Positions 20,379-29,241 of a DNA stretch of 41,455 bases are shown here, piece after piece (positions within the stretch are counted from its first letter, which is position 1; each line of letters begins with the position of its first letter). Source of the DNA: Spongiactinospora gelatinilytica (GTDB taxonomy: Bacteria > Actinomycetota > Actinomycetes > Streptosporangiales > Streptosporangiaceae). A program made the translations under genes and the position numbers. The DNA lies in assembly GCF_003236385.1 (NCBI RefSeq), contig NZ_POUA01000021.1:1-41455 (forward strand), written 5' to 3'. The notes beneath the pieces are model-generated. The model was not told where the DNA came from. It searched no databases and saw only the letters and a program-made list of their open reading frames with translations.

Positions 20379-21776
20379 ATGCTCGTCCAGCCCGATCCCA
20401 CCTTCTATCCATCGGCTCGTGAGGCGATGCGCGGGCCGCGCGAACGGCACGCCTACGTCGCCCTGCTCGACGCGCAGGGCGAGGGGCGGCCGGACGCGCT
20501 CGCCACCGTCGACCTCGATCCGTCCTCGCCCGGCTACGGCTCGGTCGCCAACGTGACCGACATGCCGGTGGCGGGCGACGAGCTGCACCACTTCGGGTGG
20601 AACGTCTGCAGCGCGGCCCTGTGCCCGTACGCGCCGCATCCGCACGTCGAGCGGCGGTACCTGATCGTCCCCGGGCTCCGGTCCTCCCGGGTGTACGTCT
20701 TGGACACCAAGCCCGATCCGCTGCGCCCGACGCTGGTCAAGACGATCGAGCCGGCGACCTTGGCGGAGCGGACCGGCTACAGCCGCCCGCACACCGTGCA
20801 CTGCGGCACCGACGCGATCTACGTGAGCGCGCTCGGCGACACCGCGGGCGACGCGCCCGGCGGCGTCTTCATGCTCGACCACGACACCTTCGAGCCGCTG
20901 GGCCGCTGGGAGGTGGAGCGCGGGCCACAGCGGCTGCACTACGACTTCTGGTGGCACCTGGGTCACGACACGATGATCACCAGCGAGTGGGGCACCCCGA
21001 ACATGATCGAGGCGGGTCCCGACCTCGACCTGCTGGTGAACCGCAAGTACGGCCACCGGCTGCACGTCTGGGACCTGCGCAAGCGCGTCCACCTCCAGGA
21101 GATCGACCTCGGCGACCAGCACCAGATGGCGCTGGAGCTGCGCCCCGCGCACGACCCGACCAAGACCTACGGCTTCGTCAACACCGTCATCAGCGTCGAG
21201 GACCTTTCCGCGAACATCTTCACCTGGTACCTGGACGACGGCGAGTGGAAGGCCGAGAAGGTCATCACGATCCCCGCCGAGCCCGCCGACCCCGCGCTGC
21301 TGCCCGAGCCGCTGAAGGGGTTCGGCGCGGTCCCGCCGCTGGTCACCGACATCTCGCTGACCCTCGATGACCGCATCCTGCTGGTCTCGGCGTGGGGCAC
21401 CGGCGAACTGCTGGCCTACGACGTCTCCGACCCGTTCAACCCGCGTCAGACCGGCTCGGTGCGGATCGGCGGCATCGTCGGGCGTACCGCGCACCCGGGT
21501 TCGCCCGGCACCGCGCGCAACGGCGGGCCGCAGATGGTCGAGACCAGCCGCGACGGGCGGCGGGTCTACTTCACCAACTCCCTCTACCGCACCTGGGACG
21601 ACGTCTTCTACCCCGACGGCGTGACGAGCTGGCTGGCCAAGGCCGACCTCGCCGGGGACGGCTCGCTGTCCCTGGACGCCGGCTTCCTGGCCGACTTCGC
21701 CGGCGACGGCCGCCGCGCCCACCAGGTGCGGCTACAGGGCGGCGACGCCTCCTCCGACTCCTACTGCTTCCCGTAA
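20379..21776 (+). CDS. Selenium-binding protein / methanethiol oxidase (SBP56 family)
   Basis: 465 residues, the family's normal length. AAGGGGG precedes the ATG at 20379. Family hallmarks: DELHHFGWNVC (His70, His71, Cys77), SRPHTVHC (about 135-142), a WD-like beta-propeller with FWWHLGHDTMITSEWG, and RAHQVRLQGGD near the C-terminus. Characterised bacterial and human members oxidise methanethiol to formaldehyde, hydrogen sulfide and hydrogen peroxide and bind copper through these His residues; function here follows by family. No signal peptide is seen. It is followed 17 bases later by a membrane protein gene in the same direction. Confidence 0.93.
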   Translation: MLVQPDPTFYPSAREAMRGPRERHAYVALLDAQGEGRPDALATVDLDPSSPGYGSVANVTDMPVAGDELHHFGWNVCSAALCPYAPHPHVERRYLIVPGLRSSRVYVLDTKPDPLRPTLVKTIEPATLAERTGYSRPHTVHCGTDAIYVSALGDTAGDAPGGVFMLDHDTFEPLGRWEVERGPQRLHYDFWWHLGHDTMITSEWGTPNMIEAGPDLDLLVNRKYGHRLHVWDLRKRVHLQEIDLGDQHQMALELRPAHDPTKTYGFVNTVISVEDLSANIFTWYLDDGEWKAEKVITIPAEPADPALLPEPLKGFGAVPPLVTDISLTLDDRILLVSAWGTGELLAYDVSDPFNPRQTGSVRIGGIVGRTAHPGSPGTARNGGPQMVETSRDGRRVYFTNSLYRTWDDVFYPDGVTSWLAKADLAGDGSLSLDAGFLADFAGDGRRAHQVRLQGGDASSDSYCFP

Positions 21777-22396: not shown

Positions 22397-22438
22397 CGTG
22401 GCTTGAACCACCCGCGTCTGGGATACGTCATAGGTCGT

Positions 22439-23809
22439 GTGCGTCCCTTTATTACGACTACGATCACTGCCGTCGCGCTCGCCGCCGCCGTCGCCGGCTG
22501 CGGCGCAGCGCAGAAACCGACTTCCGCGGGTCCGGCCACGTCCAGCCCGTCCGGGCCCGCAGACTCGGTCGGCTCGGCCGCGCCGACCGGTGAGGAGGGC
22601 CCCGTCGTGAAGGTGGGTGAGTCCGGCGTGCTGACAGCCGAAGGGGTCAGCCGGGAGGTGGCGCCCGCGGACGCCCCGGTCCCGCAGGTGGTGCAGGGCA
22701 TGACGGCCTTCGGCCACGCCCTGCACGCCAAGGTCGCGAGGCCCGGCGAGAACACCGTGATCTCGCCGTTGAGCATCGCCTACGCCTACGGGCTGGCCAG
22801 AGCGGGAGCGGCCGGCGAGACCGGCGCCCGGATCGACCAGGTGTTCGGCTTCCCCGGCCAGGGCCCGCACACCGCGTTCAACTCGCTGACCGCGGACATC
22901 ATCACCGTGGACGGCGTGCCGCCCAAGCCGGACCGCAGCGAGCGCGACGCCGCGCAGGACGGCGAGCCCGCCGACCCGATCGTGGGCATCGCCAACGGGC
23001 TGTTCGCCCAACACGGGCTGCCCGTCAAGCCGGGCTTCCTGAAGACCGCCAAGTCGCAGTACGACGCGGGCCTGCACGCGGTGGACTTCGCCGGCGAGGC
23101 CACCAAGACCATCGACAAGTGGGTCACCGAGCAGACCGCCGGGCGGATCAACAAGCTGTTCGACAGCCTCGACCCCGCCACCAAGCTGGTCCTGGCGAAC
23201 GCCGTCTACCTCAAGGCCGACTGGGAGAAGCCGTTCACCGCCGAGCCCGCGCAGAAGGCGCCGTTCACGCTGGCCGACGGTTCGCGCAAGACCGTCGAGC
23301 TGATGAAGCAGTCCGGCAACTTCCGCTACGCCAAGGGCTCGGGCTGGCAGGCGGTGGAACTCCCCTACGCCAAGAGCGACCTGGCCATGTGGGTGCTCGT
23401 GCCGGACGCGGGCGGCGCCCCCGGCGACCTGCTCAAGGCCGAGACACTGCAGCAGGTCGGCCCGAACCTGGCCGACACCAGGGTCGGCGTCTTCCTGCCC
23501 CGCTGGGACTTCGGCACCGACCTGGACCTGATGCCGCCAATGTCCGCGCTCGGGCTGGGCGCCGGCGGCGACTTCTCCGGCATCTCCGACGGGCTGACCC
23601 TCAAGCAGGCGGTCCACCGGGCCAACATCACCGTGGACGAGCACGGCACGGAGGCCGCCGCGGTCACCGGGCTGGCCTTCCCGGTGTCGGCGGCGCCGGA
23701 GGCGGAGACCACGGTCCGCGCCGACCACCCGTTCGCCTTCGCGATCGTGCATAAGAAGACCGGGGCCCCGCTGTTCATGGGCCAGGTCTCGGACCCGGCC
23801 AAGAAGTGA
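22439..23809 (+). CDS. Lipoprotein serpin (serine protease inhibitor)
   Basis: About 456 residues. The GTG at 22439 gives a lipoprotein signal RPFITTTITAVALAAAVAGC with lipobox Cys; a TTG at 22403 is a weaker alternative. A Ser/Pro/Ala-rich linker is followed by a full serpin fold: NTVISPLSIAYAYGLARAGA, WVTEQTAGRINKLF and LVLANAVYLKADWEKPF (breach/shutter strands). The reactive-loop hinge is EHGTEAAAVTG, then LAFPVSAAPEA, and the C-terminal strand is HPFAFAIVHKKTGAPLFMG. Counting from the hinge puts the P1 residue near the Val-Ser in FPVSAA, consistent with elastase- or subtilisin-like targets. It acts outside the membrane. Confidence 0.93.
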   Translation: MRPFITTTITAVALAAAVAGCGAAQKPTSAGPATSSPSGPADSVGSAAPTGEEGPVVKVGESGVLTAEGVSREVAPADAPVPQVVQGMTAFGHALHAKVARPGENTVISPLSIAYAYGLARAGAAGETGARIDQVFGFPGQGPHTAFNSLTADIITVDGVPPKPDRSERDAAQDGEPADPIVGIANGLFAQHGLPVKPGFLKTAKSQYDAGLHAVDFAGEATKTIDKWVTEQTAGRINKLFDSLDPATKLVLANAVYLKADWEKPFTAEPAQKAPFTLADGSRKTVELMKQSGNFRYAKGSGWQAVELPYAKSDLAMWVLVPDAGGAPGDLLKAETLQQVGPNLADTRVGVFLPRWDFGTDLDLMPPMSALGLGAGGDFSGISDGLTLKQAVHRANITVDEHGTEAAAVTGLAFPVSAAPEAETTVRADHPFAFAIVHKKTGAPLFMGQVSDPAKK

Positions 23810-23972: not shown

Positions 23973-24777
23973 GTGCGCCCTGTGGTCGACGTGATCGTGG
24001 TGACCGGAATGCTGGTCGTGGTCCCGGTGGGCCTGCGACTGGCCGGGTTCTCCCGCCTGGCGGCCGGTCTGTGGTGGGCGGGCGCGGTCCCGGGGGCGGT
24101 GTCGCTCTGGCTGCCCAGGGGCGCGGTGGCGGCGACGCTCGCGGGGAATCTACCTGTGCGCGGCGCTCGTCCTGGCCGCCCGGATCCCGGCTCGGCTGTG
24201 GGCCCGCCGTACGGCGAGCGAGCCGGCCTTCGCGACGGCGCTGATCACCCCGGCCATCGCGGGCGTCGCCCTGCCGGCCGAGCGGGCCGGACATCCCCTG
24301 TGGGGCTTCGACTCGGCATCCTGGCCCTCACCACCGCCCACTTCCACTACGCGGGGTTCGCCGCCGCGCTGGTGGCCGGGCTGCTGTGCCGTTCGTTCGC
24401 CGAGTCGGCGACCGGGCGGGCGGCGGCGCTGACCGTGCCCGCGGGCACCCTGCTGGTCCTCGGCGGCTACTTCGTCGGCGACCTGGCCGAGCTGGCCGGG
24501 GCGGTGGTCCTGACCGCGGGCATGTGGGCGGTCGCCTGGCTCACGCTGGTACGGTCCCGGGAGGCCGACCCTCTGACGCGCGCGCTGTTCCGCGTCTCGG
24601 CGGCCCCGCTGGCGGTGTCCATGATCCTCGCCCTGGCCTGGGCCCTGGGCGAGGCGACCGGGCCTGCCGCATCCCACCATCCCCTGGATGATCGCCACCC
24701 ACGGCGTGGCGAACGCCGCCGGCTTCGCGCTGTGCGGCCTCGCCGCCTGGATACGGCTACGTCCACGACAGCCATGA
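23973..24777 (+). pseudogene. YndJ family membrane protein, three single-base frameshifts
   Basis: GTG at 23973 after AGGAGG. Family-like segments lie in alternating frames: PVVDVIVVTGMLVVVPVGL; then after about 24145 GIYLCAALVLAARIPARLW, ASEPAFATALITPAIAGV; then after about 24315 ILALTTAHFHYAGFAAALV (the conserved YndJ HFHYAGF motif); then after about 24660 TIPWMIATHGVANAAGF and a stop at 24775. Two of the three sites are GGG/GGGG runs, so assembly error is possible; otherwise the gene is dead. YndJ is a multi-pass membrane protein of unknown function often next to DUF1990, as here. Confidence 0.75.
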
Positions 24778-24785
24778 GAGGTCCG

Positions 24786-25295
24786 ATGCAGGAGTTCACC
24801 TACCCCGAAGTCGGCGCGACCCGCGAGGGACGGCTGCCCGACGGCTACCACCACATCCGCCACCGGGCCTGCCTCGGTCCCGGCATCACCCTGCGGGCCG
24901 CCGCCGACGCCCTGTTCGACTGGCGGGTACACCGCAGGCTGCTGCTGCACCCGATGGCGACCGCGCCGCGGGCCGCGCCCGGCGTCACGGTGATCTGCCT
25001 GCTGGGCCCGGTGCGCGTGCCGTGCCGGGTGGTGTGGACGGTGGAGGAGGAGGGCCGGGCCGGTTTCGGGTACGGCACGCTGCCCGGCCATCCCGAGATC
25101 GGCGAGGAGTCCTTCGTGCTCGAACGGGACGAAGACGGCCTGGTGTGGTTCACCGTCACCGCGTTCGCCCGGCCGGGCGCGTGGTACACCCGCCTGGGCG
25201 CTCCGGCGCTGCCCCTGCTCATGGGGATCTTCACCCGCCTCTACACCATGGCATTGCGCTGGGAATCCCGCCGTTCACCTGGTGTGCACGAGTAA
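24786..25295 (+). CDS. DUF1990 family protein
   Basis: 169 residues. The ATG at 24786 (MQEFTYPEVGATREGRLP) has GAGAGG upstream; an in-frame ATG at 24774 overlaps the YndJ stop and would give four more residues. Conserved DUF1990 features are GYHHIRHRACLGPG near the start, VPCRVVWTVEEEGRAGFGYG (shown as one 20-residue strand pair) and WYTRLGAPALPLLMG near the end. The fold is thought to be START/polyketide-cyclase-like; function unknown. It is probably translationally coupled to YndJ, so decay of that gene may reduce its expression. Confidence 0.87.
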   Translation: MQEFTYPEVGATREGRLPDGYHHIRHRACLGPGITLRAAADALFDWRVHRRLLLHPMATAPRAAPGVTVICLLGPVRVPCRVVWTVEEEGRAGFGYGTLPGHPEIGEESFVLERDEDGLVWFTVTAFARPGAWYTRLGAPALPLLMGIFTRLYTMALRWESRRSPGVHE

Positions 25296-25442: not shown

Positions 25443-26168
25443 ATGTTAAATCGTAAAAAGGCGGCATTCGCCGCGCTTGCGGTCATCGCCTGCGCGGCCA
25501 CCGCCACCGCGGGGCTGGTGTGGGGCGGGGGTCGGACGACGGGCGCAGGCCCGGCGGTGGCGGCCGACCGCGCCGCGGCCGGGCGGGCGGCGGCCAGGCT
25601 CGCGCCCGGCCAGAACGACCCGCTCAGCGCCGACGAACGCCGGCGCGCCATCGAGATCGCCGGCGACGCCGACGCCCGCCGCCGCGGCGGCCGCACCGAG
25701 CTGCTCTACGTCCAGCGCGACGACGACAAGGCGGTGACCGGCCGGCGGGCCGAGGCGTTCAGCTACGACTACGACTCCGACCGGCTCACCCTGCGGACGA
25801 TCGACCTGGGCAGCGGCCGGATCGTCTCGACCGAGACCGCCACCGGCGTGCAGCCGCCGCCTTCCGACGACGAGGAGCGCGCGGCGGCCGAGCTGCTACT
25901 CGCCGACGCCGGGCTGGGCAAGGGAGTGCGCGAGCAGTTCGAGCAGCGGGCGGGCCGCCCGCTGCGCTCGCCGGACGACCTCCACCTGCGGGGCGTGATC
26001 TTCAAGCCGGACCACGTCCACGGCGTGTCCAACGCCCGCGCGGTCGCCGCCTGCGCCGAGCACCGCTGCCTGCGGCTGTTCGTCCGGCTGCCGAAGGGCA
26101 AGTGGCTGGACACCAGCCGGATCGTGATCGACCTGTCGGCCCGCGAGATCTACACGATGGAGTGGTGA
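25443..26168 (+). CDS. Secreted protein, possible amine-oxidase N-domain partner
   Basis: 241 residues. An N-terminal hydrophobic signal or anchor (LNRKKAAFAALAVIACAATA) is followed by an Ala/Arg-rich linker. The body has a strand-rich N2/N3-like pattern: TELLYVQRDDDKAVTGRRAE, DRLTLRTIDLGSGRIVSTE, then a helix (DEERAAAELLLADAGLG) and C-terminal RCLRLFVRLPKGKWLDTSR and VIDLSAREIYTME. Copper amine oxidases carry small N-terminal domains of this style before the catalytic barrel. The stop is 2 bases from the start of the amine-oxidase-like gene, so the two are one operon. The domain match is suggestive, not certain. Confidence 0.65.
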   Translation: MLNRKKAAFAALAVIACAATATAGLVWGGGRTTGAGPAVAADRAAAGRAAARLAPGQNDPLSADERRRAIEIAGDADARRRGGRTELLYVQRDDDKAVTGRRAEAFSYDYDSDRLTLRTIDLGSGRIVSTETATGVQPPPSDDEERAAAELLLADAGLGKGVREQFEQRAGRPLRSPDDLHLRGVIFKPDHVHGVSNARAVAACAEHRCLRLFVRLPKGKWLDTSRIVIDLSAREIYTMEW

Positions 26169-26170
26169 CG

Positions 26171-27355
26171 ATGCGGTCGTTCCGAGCGGCCGTGATCGCC
26201 GCATGCCTGCTGATCGCCCTTCCGCCGGCGGCGGTGCCCGCGCTCGCGGTCGCCGAGCCCCCGTCGTGCGCCGACCCCTACCTCGTGGAGCGCACGTTCG
26301 CCAACGGCGCGCGCTGGCAGCTCTGCTGGGAGATGCGCGAGACCGAGGGCCTGACCCTCACCGACGCCGTCTACACCCCGAACGGCCACGCGCCGGTGAG
26401 CGTGCTGACCAGCGCGCACCTCGCGCAGATCCACGTCCCCTACGACAGCGGCGAGCCGCGTTTCCACGACATGGCGGGCGGGCTCGGGTTCTCCGCGGTG
26501 CCGTTGCAAGACCAGGACTGCCCGGAGGGCGAGCGGCGGGAGCAGGACGAGGTCCCCGTGCTGTGCGTGCTGCCCGACCAGCCGCGCGGCATCGCCTACC
26601 TGAATCCCTCGCTCGGCGAGGACTCACTGCGCAGGTCGGCGCAGGGCAAGGCGCTGGTGCTGTTCTCCGCCTTCGAGCTCGGCTGGTACACCTATCTGGT
26701 CGAGTGGCGGTTCGCCGACGACGGCTCGATCAACCCCAGGGTCGGCGCGACCGGCTCGCTGCGCGGCAGCGACGGCGTCGTGGTCAGCCCCGAGCACGGC
26801 TGGCCGATCGGCGTCGGGGCGAGCGACTTCGAGGAAAGCCACCAGCACAACATCTTCTGGCGGCTCGACTTCGACGTCCAGGGTCCCGCGGACGACGTGG
26901 TCGAGCAGTACGACTTCGCCGGCTCCGGCACGGCCAGCCTGGAGATGAAGCGGAAGGCGCTCACCAAGGAGGCCGGGGTGACGAACAATCGCACCCGGTG
27001 GTGGCGGGTCGTCGACAAGACGGTGAAGAACTCCGACGGCCATGCGGCGTCCTGGGAGATCACCAACTCCGACAGCAGCCAGTACCGCGGCCCGGACACC
27101 GAGCCGTACAGCCACTCCGACGTCTACGTCACCCAGTACAACGCGTGCGAGCGACTGACCGCGGAGAACGCCGAACCGCCGTGCGACGAGTCGGTCGATC
27201 GGTTCGTCAACGGCCAGACGATCACCGATCCGGTCGTGTGGGTGAGCGTCGACTACCACCATGTCGCCAGGGACGAGGACCACGACCCGATGCCGACGCA
27301 CTGGCAGGGGTTCTTCATCCAGCCCCGCGACATAACGGCGAGCAACCCGCATTAG
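26171..27355 (+). CDS. Secreted copper-amine-oxidase-like protein
   Basis: 394 residues with a Sec signal (about 1-28). It resembles the catalytic beta-sandwich of copper amine oxidases: HVPYDSGEPRFHD (about 88-100), LGWYTYLVEWRFADDGSI (about 170-187) aligns with the cofactor-Tyr strand, SHQHNIFWRLDFDV (His224, His226) aligns with the copper HxH, and THWQGFFIQPRD (His377) with the third copper ligand. The TPQ consensus N-Y-D/E is here W-Tyr173-T, and the catalytic Asp region looks altered (MAGGLGF). Copper binding is likely; canonical topaquinone amine oxidation is doubtful. Usual enzymes are over 600 residues; this is only the core. Confidence 0.75.
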   Translation: MRSFRAAVIAACLLIALPPAAVPALAVAEPPSCADPYLVERTFANGARWQLCWEMRETEGLTLTDAVYTPNGHAPVSVLTSAHLAQIHVPYDSGEPRFHDMAGGLGFSAVPLQDQDCPEGERREQDEVPVLCVLPDQPRGIAYLNPSLGEDSLRRSAQGKALVLFSAFELGWYTYLVEWRFADDGSINPRVGATGSLRGSDGVVVSPEHGWPIGVGASDFEESHQHNIFWRLDFDVQGPADDVVEQYDFAGSGTASLEMKRKALTKEAGVTNNRTRWWRVVDKTVKNSDGHAASWEITNSDSSQYRGPDTEPYSHSDVYVTQYNACERLTAENAEPPCDESVDRFVNGQTITDPVVWVSVDYHHVARDEDHDPMPTHWQGFFIQPRDITASNPH

Positions 27356-28250: not shown

Positions 28251-28256
28251 TATATT
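28251..28256 (+). promoter_or_regulatory. -10 element TATATT of a probable leaderless gene
   Basis: TATATT ends 7 bases before the WYL regulator ATG at 28264 and there is no Shine-Dalgarno sequence. Leaderless transcripts with this TANNNT-to-start spacing are common in actinobacteria. Confidence 0.55.
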
Positions 28257-28263
28257 GAGCCTC

Positions 28264-29241
28264 ATGTTGGAAACGTCCGCGCGGTTGCTCCGGCTGCTCT
28301 CGCTCTTGCAGGCCAGGCGCGAGTGGCCGGGCGCCGAGCTGGCCGAACGGCTCGGCGTGAGCACGCGGACGATCCGCCGCGACGTCGATCGGCTGCGTGA
28401 GCTGGGCTACCCGGTGCACACCACGATGGGCATCGCGGGCGGCTACCGGCTCGGCGCGGGGGCGGCGCTGCCGCCGCTGCTGCTGGACGACGACGAGGCG
28501 GTGGCGGTGGCCGTCGGGCTGCGCACGGCCGCGGGCGGCACGGTCTCCGGCATCGAAGAGAACTCCCTGCGCGCCCTGGCCAAGCTGGAACAGGTGCTGC
28601 CGTCCCGGCTGCGGCACCGGATCAACGCGGTCCACTCGGCCACCGTGCCGATGCCCGGCACGGGCCCGACCGTCGATTCCGCGGTGCTCAGCACGATCGC
28701 CGCGGCCTGCCGCGATCATGAGCGGCTGCGGTTCGACTACCTCGACCACGAGGGCGCGGCGAGCGTGCGGGTGACCGAGCCGCATCGCATGGTGAGCTGG
28801 GGACGCCGCTGGTACCTGGTGGCCTGGGACGTCGAGCGGGACGACTGGCGCACCTTCCGGGTGGACCGGATCAGGCCGCGGGTGCCCAGCGGGCCCCGGT
28901 TCGAGCCGCGCGACCCGCCGGAGGGCGACGTCGCCGCATACGTCTCCCGGCGGCTGTCGGCCGACATGTGGCCCTACCGCGCGCGGCTCGTCATGCACGC
29001 CCCGGCCGCGCGGCTGGCCCCCTGGATCTCCCCGGGCGACGGCCGGCTGCGGCCGATCGACGAGCAGACCTGCGAACTGGAGATCGGCAGCGAGTCACTG
29101 GCCATGCTCGCCGGGTTCCTGGTCATGCTCGACGTCGACTTCGACGTACAAGACCCCCCTGAACTGCGTGAACACCTGCGCGCAATTGCGGTGCGCTGCG
29201 CCGCCGCGGCCGTCGGGCCCGCGCGCGACACTAAGGAGTGA
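28264..29241 (+). CDS. WYL domain transcriptional regulator
   Basis: 325 residues from the ATG at 28264 (MLETSARLLRLLSLLQ). An N-terminal winged helix (about 15-60, AERLGVSTRTIRRDVDRLRE) and the GGYRLG turn are followed by a WYL domain (about 140-215, EPHRMVSWGRRWYLVAWDVE, FRVDRIRPRV) and a WCX C-terminal extension. WYL proteins sense ligands, often nucleotides, and can activate or repress. The end of the gene contains the AAGGAG used by the next gene, so expression of the downstream kinase is linked. Confidence 0.93.
   Translation: MLETSARLLRLLSLLQARREWPGAELAERLGVSTRTIRRDVDRLRELGYPVHTTMGIAGGYRLGAGAALPPLLLDDDEAVAVAVGLRTAAGGTVSGIEENSLRALAKLEQVLPSRLRHRINAVHSATVPMPGTGPTVDSAVLSTIAAACRDHERLRFDYLDHEGAASVRVTEPHRMVSWGRRWYLVAWDVERDDWRTFRVDRIRPRVPSGPRFEPRDPPEGDVAAYVSRRLSADMWPYRARLVMHAPAARLAPWISPGDGRLRPIDEQTCELEIGSESLAMLAGFLVMLDVDFDVQDPPELREHLRAIAVRCAAAAVGPARDTKE

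Follow-up and report, generated by a model that had tools for sequence, protein, structure and literature searches.

Two adjacent reading frames in a 41,455-nucleotide stretch of the Spongiactinospora gelatinilytica genome (hereafter, the window) raise the question of whether a copper amine oxidase (CuAO) can be encoded as two separate, secreted chains, and whether such a pair would still build the topaquinone (TPQ) cofactor. An original prediction, made from the sequence alone, had described them as a split CuAO-like pair with an altered cofactor motif. The two frames, here named P1 (241 residues) and P2 (394 residues), were found at the predicted coordinates and with the predicted 2-base gap between them; both lie on the forward strand and start with ATG. 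Their positions and those of the features discussed below are collected in Table 1.

Table 1. Features of the P1-P2 locus and its surroundings, numbered from the first nucleotide of the window.
Feature	Position	Strand	Remarks
SBP56 protein	20379-21776		Upstream of the pair
Serpin (PF00079, 1.8e-82)	22403-23809		Lipoprotein-like N-terminus by eye
DUF1990 domain	in frame 24612-25295		Upstream of the pair
P1 ORF	25443..26168	+	241 aa, ATG start; N2-N3 (D2-D3) half of CuAO, probably exported
P1 N-terminal hydrophobic segment	25443..25532	+	Putative signal peptide or membrane anchor, read from sequence
P1 motif C204-x-x-H207-R208-C209	26052..26069	+	Near the end of N3
Intergenic gap	26169..26170	+	Two bases from the P1 stop to the P2 start, as in the two sister Spongiactinospora records
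P2 ORF	26171..27355	+	394 aa, ATG start; S4 (D4) catalytic-domain half, probably exported
P2 N-terminal signal-peptide-like segment	26171..26254	+	Read from sequence
Tyr91	26441..26443	+	Aligned with conserved helper Tyr (Tyr284 AGAO/Tyr305 HPAO-1); 49/49
Asp100	26468..26470	+	Aligned with catalytic base Asp298 of AGAO; 49/49 and 80/80
W172-Y173-T174-Y175	26684..26695	+	Cofactor motif (G-W-Y-T-Y context); W172 replaces Asn
H224-Q-H226	26840..26848	+	Aligned with two copper ligands (profile alignment)
H363-H364	27257..27262	+	H364 aligned with third copper ligand (profile alignment)
Met374	27290..27292	+	Aligned with Met near copper, Met602 of AGAO (profile alignment)
Alpha/beta hydrolase frame	first ATG 27388, to 28227		Downstream of the pair
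WYL-domain regulator	28255-29241		After the alpha/beta hydrolase

P2 matched the Pfam CuAO family PF01179 well above its gathering cut-off (1.5e-29; 103.6 bits, cut-off 27), and reached 84.7 of the 651 bits set as the curated cut-off of the NCBIfam primary-amine oxidase model PRK11504, which it missed by far. The AlphaFold2 model of P2 (pLDDT 79.1; pTM 0.82) reproduced the S4 fold, as judged by comparison with the A. globiformis CuAO (AGAO; 2yx9), which yielded a VIA Z of 33.9 and an rmsd of 3.0 over 346 aligned residues. All 50 matches listed in each of two fold searches with P2 were CuAO-family entries, as judged by title or by the known identity of the entry.

The arrangement of the pair is conserved. 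P2 is the sole PF01179 match in the S. gelatinilytica genome (an assembly of 957 contigs, 95.9% complete). A P2 match of any grade at E 0.001 was found in 57 of 150 genomes of the window's family, and a close one (E 2.5e-145 or better) in 16, the same 16 that encode a close P1. Weak P1-like matches (E 2.5e-12 to 2.7e-17) also appeared at six loci (L048-L053) of genomes without a close P2 (G031, G081, G025, G147, G128, and G108); five of them cover the N3 half only, and L053 has internal stops. In wider samples, a search of 394 genomes of the class at E 1e-30 found P2 in 40, distributed over six families, and a search of 346 genomes from the phylum at 1e-18 found it in six, every one of which belongs to the same class. 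Relatives of P2 were encoded in 514 of 556 pattern-matched genome_contigs stretches, which indicates that its occurrence is not a matter of chance; none of 18 pattern matches in viral_contigs was a relative.

Two partly overlapping sets of loci were used to describe the arrangement: 49 regions from the window's family and from class-wide matches (the family survey comprised 30 loci from the 57 matching genomes, plus regions added later), and the best 80 of the 514 genome_contigs relatives. P1 was located upstream of P2 on the same strand in 47 of the 49 regions, its distance to the aligned P2 start ranging from -10 to 204 bases. The same held, with a limit of 600 bases, for 79 of the 80 genome_contigs loci, the lone exception (L165) running into a run of N at an assembly gap. 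All three relative reading frames occurred, with P2-versus-P1 offsets of 0, 1, and 2 in 20, 25, and 34 of the 79 loci, respectively. The genomes of the two regions devoid of P1 (L091 and L106; genomes G027 and G318) did not yield a P1 elsewhere either, in a genome-wide search that was positive for 4 of 4 control genomes. The dN/dS ratios were below 1 in all four comparisons, i.e., 0.28 (P1) and 0.38 (P2) against S. rosea, and 0.52 (P1) and 0.38 (P2) against strain TRM90649. Two P2 alignments were built, one from 27 of the 49 P2s (A1) and another from the window and 42 of the 80 genome_contigs loci (A2), as well as a P1 alignment (A3) with the window and 41 of the 42 A2 loci, leaving out the truncated sequence of L178.

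Recognition of P1 relied on these homologues. P1 had no Pfam family at E 1, and no CuAO Pfam match was detected at E 0.1 among the 42 P1 alignment members, window included. At the latter threshold, 38 of the 42 matched the NCBIfam primary-amine oxidase model, all far under its cut-off, with a best E value of 5.8e-7 and 0.069 for the window P1. With the 42-member profile, residues 58-240 of the window P1 could be aligned to the N-terminal portion of ten canonical CuAOs (hhalign 96%, E 2.7e-9). Furthermore, the AlphaFold2 model of P1 (pLDDT 80.2; pTM 0.69) consists of two alpha/beta modules and matched residues 21-209 (D2-D3) of the Hansenula CuAO (HPAO) with a VIA-align Z of 11.8 over 163 aligned residues. 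The rmsd of this match, 9.3, indicates that the two subdomains of the modeled P1 are placed differently with respect to each other than in HPAO; a nearly equal match was obtained between one subdomain alone and a designed protein of cystatin fold (Z 10.1, rmsd 2.2, 70 aligned residues). Both the profile-profile and the predicted-structure matches bear out the N2/N3-like character originally attributed to P1, and structure prediction returned CuAO folds for both halves. P1 and P2 are separately made halves of a CuAO relative, the former carrying N2-N3 and the latter S4 with the three copper histidines, and the split is a conserved gene arrangement that is cut at a domain border and keeps the gene order of the single-chain enzyme. 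The C-x-x-H-R-C motif of P1, with R208 and C209 invariant and C204 and H207 conserved at 90% or more in the 42 rows, is a candidate disulphide or metal site.

The residues of the active site were examined in both locus sets. Tyr173, Tyr175, Asp100, Met374, and the three copper ligands (H224, H226, and H364) were invariant in the 49 P2s, representing six families, and in the best 80 of the 514 relatives; Tyr91 was invariant in the 49 P2s. The prediction that P2 keeps the three copper histidines and the tyrosine at the cofactor position thereby holds for every locus examined. The conserved tyrosine equivalent to Tyr91 hydrogen-bonds the cofactor (PMC3382800 and PMC9491219) and Met602 of AGAO is the methionine near copper (PMC9491219). 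P2 had also been described as lacking an obvious catalytic-base region, which the alignments do not support: Asp100 aligns with the base aspartate in the profile-profile comparison and, like Tyr91, is matched in all 45 rows of the tree alignment described below. Base and helper are both assigned by alignment. They are spaced by 9 residues in P2 versus 14 in canonical CuAOs, i.e., the base loop is five residues shorter, and its pLDDT in the P2 model is middling (62-69). C117 and C132 of P2 likewise align with a cysteine pair of the canonical enzymes, with a shorter loop between them.

The cofactor motif itself departs from the TPQ consensus, which was taken from a 2012 review (PMC3382800): by profile alignment, the precursor tyrosine (Tyr173) and the second tyrosine (Tyr175) are kept, Trp stands for Asn and, in the window, Thr stands for Asp/Glu. 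The predicted alteration was right and is more marked than was claimed. Its key element is the change from Asn to Trp, residue 172 being Trp in all 49 P2s and Trp in 78 and Tyr in 2 of the 80 genome_contigs loci (overlapping sets); the residue following the precursor tyrosine varies among E, T, D, A, and H in the latter. In the review, the Asn is called strictly conserved, its replacement by Ala in HPAO-1 (N404A) leaves only 5-10% TPQ, and the acidic neighbor matters too (PMC3382800). In AGAO, the N381A mutant is reported still to form TPQ, at 1/180 of the rate, with a kcat of 1/160 and ring flipping, so the Asn is not indispensable for the quinone (PMC9491219).

Comparison with other members of the superfamily revealed that the tryptophan is not peculiar to the split pairs. 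All 10 canonical CuAOs read from the window's own family carry N-Y-[ED]-Y, and a group of single-chain CuAO-like proteins, L124-L131 from actinomycetes together with L218 from Variovorax, carries W-Y-R-Y. The frames of these proteins span 533-611 codons where they are not run into upstream sequence, with no obvious signal segment in those read. In a tree of 45 sequences, which included 19 of the 49 P2s, 9 of the 10 family canonical CuAOs, and 6 of the 8 proteins L124-L131 (L221 being dropped as a fragment), the P2, single-chain W-Y-R-Y, and canonical groups were each defined by a split with a bootstrap of 100. Trp occupied the residue-172 position in 19 of 19 P2s and 7 of 7 single-chain W-Y-R-Y proteins, whereas it was found in none of the 19 canonical enzymes, 18 of which have Asn; the tree is unrooted and does not give the order of the two states. 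The single-chain group resembles P2 in this tryptophan and in the aligned Tyr, Asp, and His triad, but differs from it by the single chain, the Arg after Tyr, and a His or Gln in place of Met374. These proteins align to a canonical CuAO from about the start of N3 on (87%). Their N-terminal part is not detectably P1-like (probability 5%), and a reading of them as fused P1-P2 is unsupported for that half.

Plasmids carry further relatives, with 60 records matching P2, all at less than 60% identity. Twelve of the 60, from several phyla, were read: 10 have Asn-Tyr, two of which (L217 and L219) are nearly identical, one has His-Tyr, and one has Trp-Tyr. The His-Tyr protein, L220 from a Leisingera caerulea plasmid, is annotated as hypothetical and reads H-Y-D-Y instead of N-Y-D-Y. 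The Trp-Tyr protein is L218, whose gene resides on a betaproteobacterial plasmid (Variovorax WDL1) and adjoins a galactose oxidase-like CDS. No galactose oxidase-like neighbor was found beside the actinomycete relatives L124-L131, and such a protein was discarded as a general partner. L221, the one read of 15 Deinococcus radiodurans plasmid records matching P2, is an unannotated CuAO fragment with N-Y-D-Y; its open frame, 296 codons long, lies in the vicinity of IS4-type transposase genes, and it is probably a broken copy.

Both proteins had been predicted to be secreted, which agrees with the hydrophobic N-termini read from their sequences and, in a crude hydropathy test, with 43 of 47 P1 homologues. 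The claim stands less firmly for P2, for which 32 of 49 rows passed the same kind of test, a weak outcome caused by the trimming of rows to the alignment start and by start codons not being set individually. Some P2s end in C-terminal extensions of 76-259 residues (L101-L105, L107-L111, and L121-L123), Thr/Pro-rich in several. In 4 of the 49 (L101, L102, L103, and L111), the tail displays L-x-x-T-G, a hydrophobic stretch, and a basic end, an arrangement that we take to be sortase-like. Tails of this kind would count for a surface location in some lineages.

The genomic surroundings differ among lineages. Serpins, one of which is encoded upstream of the window pair, are not common in bacteria. 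Homologues of the other window genes within 7 kb were found only beside the pair of two sister genomes, except for the regulator, which also occurs in L173; this comparison used a crude gene picker that missed the window P1 and the alpha/beta hydrolase, among others. Elsewhere, the pair neighbors genes of alpha-glucan metabolism. Among the 16 regions with P1 from the window's family (Streptosporangiaceae), 12 carry GlgB downstream of the pair on the same strand, in nine cases at a distance of 33 to 263 bases from P2, and seven carry the maltokinase gene Pep2 upstream, 28-176 bases away from the aligned P1 start (L081, L082, L085, L086, L088, L089, and L090). The pair is flanked in those seven regions by Pep2 and GlgB of the GlgE cluster; in the one region for which further genes were identified, that of Planomonospora (L089), the order is GlgE-TreS-Pep2-P1-P2-GlgB. 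In 16 of 16 Streptomyces-type regions (L092-L098 and L112-L120), it is the other flank of the pair that carries alpha-glucan genes, namely GlgX and TreY, encoded on the opposite strand. Alpha-glucan neighbors were absent from 16 of the 17 remaining regions, L106 having a partial GlgX 7 kb away, and none was found beside the pair in the window genus. An alpha-glucan link was accordingly rejected as a general rule, being confined to two lineages that do not include the window genus. It is a lead in these two lineages and no more; synteny inside one genus amounts to one event.

Placed beside the TPQ CuAOs AGAO, ECAO, and HPAO-1 (PF01179, PRK11504), the pair has the same N2-N3-S4 content, the three copper histidines, the precursor and helper tyrosines, the base aspartate by alignment, and the methionine near copper. 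It differs from them in consisting of two chains from two genes, in the Trp and (in the window) Thr of the motif, and in the two shortened loops. TPQ primary-amine oxidases are, in addition, homodimers whose beta-hairpin arms extend to the partner subunit. The pair belongs in the CuAO (PF01179) superfamily. Since it was examined for the consensus motif and for a single chain and showed neither, it is not filed as a standard TPQ primary-amine oxidase. The two-chain copper protein of the original prediction stands as to its anatomy, i.e., a conserved split without frameshift, halves that map to the right parts of a CuAO, and ligand histidines that are invariant in the loci examined.

As to function, we give an even chance to P1 and P2 being exported to form a two-chain oxidase with a Cu/Tyr cofactor that is most likely still a quinone, its geometry altered by the tryptophan. 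Both chains would be exported and would assemble outside the cell, the N2-N3 half docking onto S4 in the way seen within a single-chain CuAO. Tyr173 would then be turned by copper and oxygen into topaquinone or a closely similar quinone, with Asp100 as the putative base by alignment. Acting at the cell surface or in the wall, the enzyme would oxidize a primary amine, with an aldehyde and H2O2 as products. In known CuAOs an Asn lies on the quinone ring; Trp172, which takes its place, might hold the ring by stacking, with an altered rate or substrate as the outcome. For the substrate, the neighborhoods in the two lineages hint at a link to alpha-glucan metabolism. Counting against this reading are the cost in TPQ of an Asn loss of the HPAO-1 type, with Trp and Thr occupying these positions in the window, as well as the rmsd of the P1 match, the P2s without P1 (2 of 49), the shorter base loop, the miss of PRK11504, and the export test result for P2.

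Among the alternatives, an oxidase that dispenses with topaquinone is unlikely, yet it fares best. Tyr173 would be unmodified, cross-linked, or otherwise changed, within a Cu-Tyr radical or other center on which Trp172 is stacked. The protein would work in a galactose-oxidase-like manner, and its substrate might be a sugar or glycan. Galactose oxidase-type copper radical oxidases also combine copper and an active-site Tyr with a Trp close by, but have a different fold, a seven-bladed propeller. Propellers were absent from the P2 fold matches listed, which is an absence from a list rather than a fold test. The near-invariance of Trp172 and its presence in the separate single-chain group indicate selection rather than decay, and the Planomonospora gene order, the GlgB and GlgX/TreY neighborhoods, and the galactose oxidase-like CDS next to the Variovorax relative count for this explanation. 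However, the residues used with the quinone are retained, including a base aspartate that a radical sugar oxidase does not need, and neither kind of neighborhood is general: alpha-glucan genes are absent in the window genus and in 16 of the 17 remaining regions, and no galactose oxidase-like gene was found beside L124-L131.

Slightly less probable again is a non-catalytic role, as a copper-binding, chaperone-like, or structural surface protein with a CuAO fold. The loss of the Asn, the variable residue after the tyrosine, and the long P2 tails of some lineages would fit it, and some animal CuAOs have adhesion roles. Decay of the active site would nevertheless be expected in this case, whereas Tyr173, Asp100, Tyr91, Tyr175, and Met374 are invariant across the 49 P2s of six families, and none of them ligates copper in the mature off-copper enzyme. 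Judging from these alignments, the near-invariance of residues that probably serve a quinone, and not the metal, speaks for catalysis, and the otherwise retained catalytic set speaks against a mere binding role. We think it improbable that the W-Y proteins represent a separate amine-oxidase-fold branch with a non-TPQ, Trp-shielded Cu-tyrosyl (or Trp/Tyr-derived) center, formed only when two separately exported chains meet outside the cell, and that their target is a glycan or amino sugar of the surface that is connected with the alpha-glucan pathway of GlgE. Finally, a single canonical CuAO gene broken by a frameshift or an assembly error, which the adjacency of the halves at 2 bases might suggest, has a negligible chance and was rejected because the same split recurs in 79 of 80 and 47 of 49 loci with all three frame offsets, P2s moreover separating from canonical CuAOs with full support.

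Whether or not the pair still makes a quinone, the locus encodes a real and conserved member of the CuAO superfamily that is unusual in having two chains and whose cofactor motif contains a fixed tryptophan. All structurally characterized CuAOs are homodimers of 70-80 kDa subunits, according to the 2012 review (PMC3382800), and a search of the open-access literature by titles and abstract starts did not find any account of a split CuAO or of Trp replacing this Asn. The pair provides a first assignment for the P1 family, which has no Pfam entry, and a natural means of separating the N2-N3 domains from the catalytic domain. As a natural group with a split chain and a fixed tryptophan, these proteins offer a ready test of the part that this residue plays in cofactor formation and catalysis.
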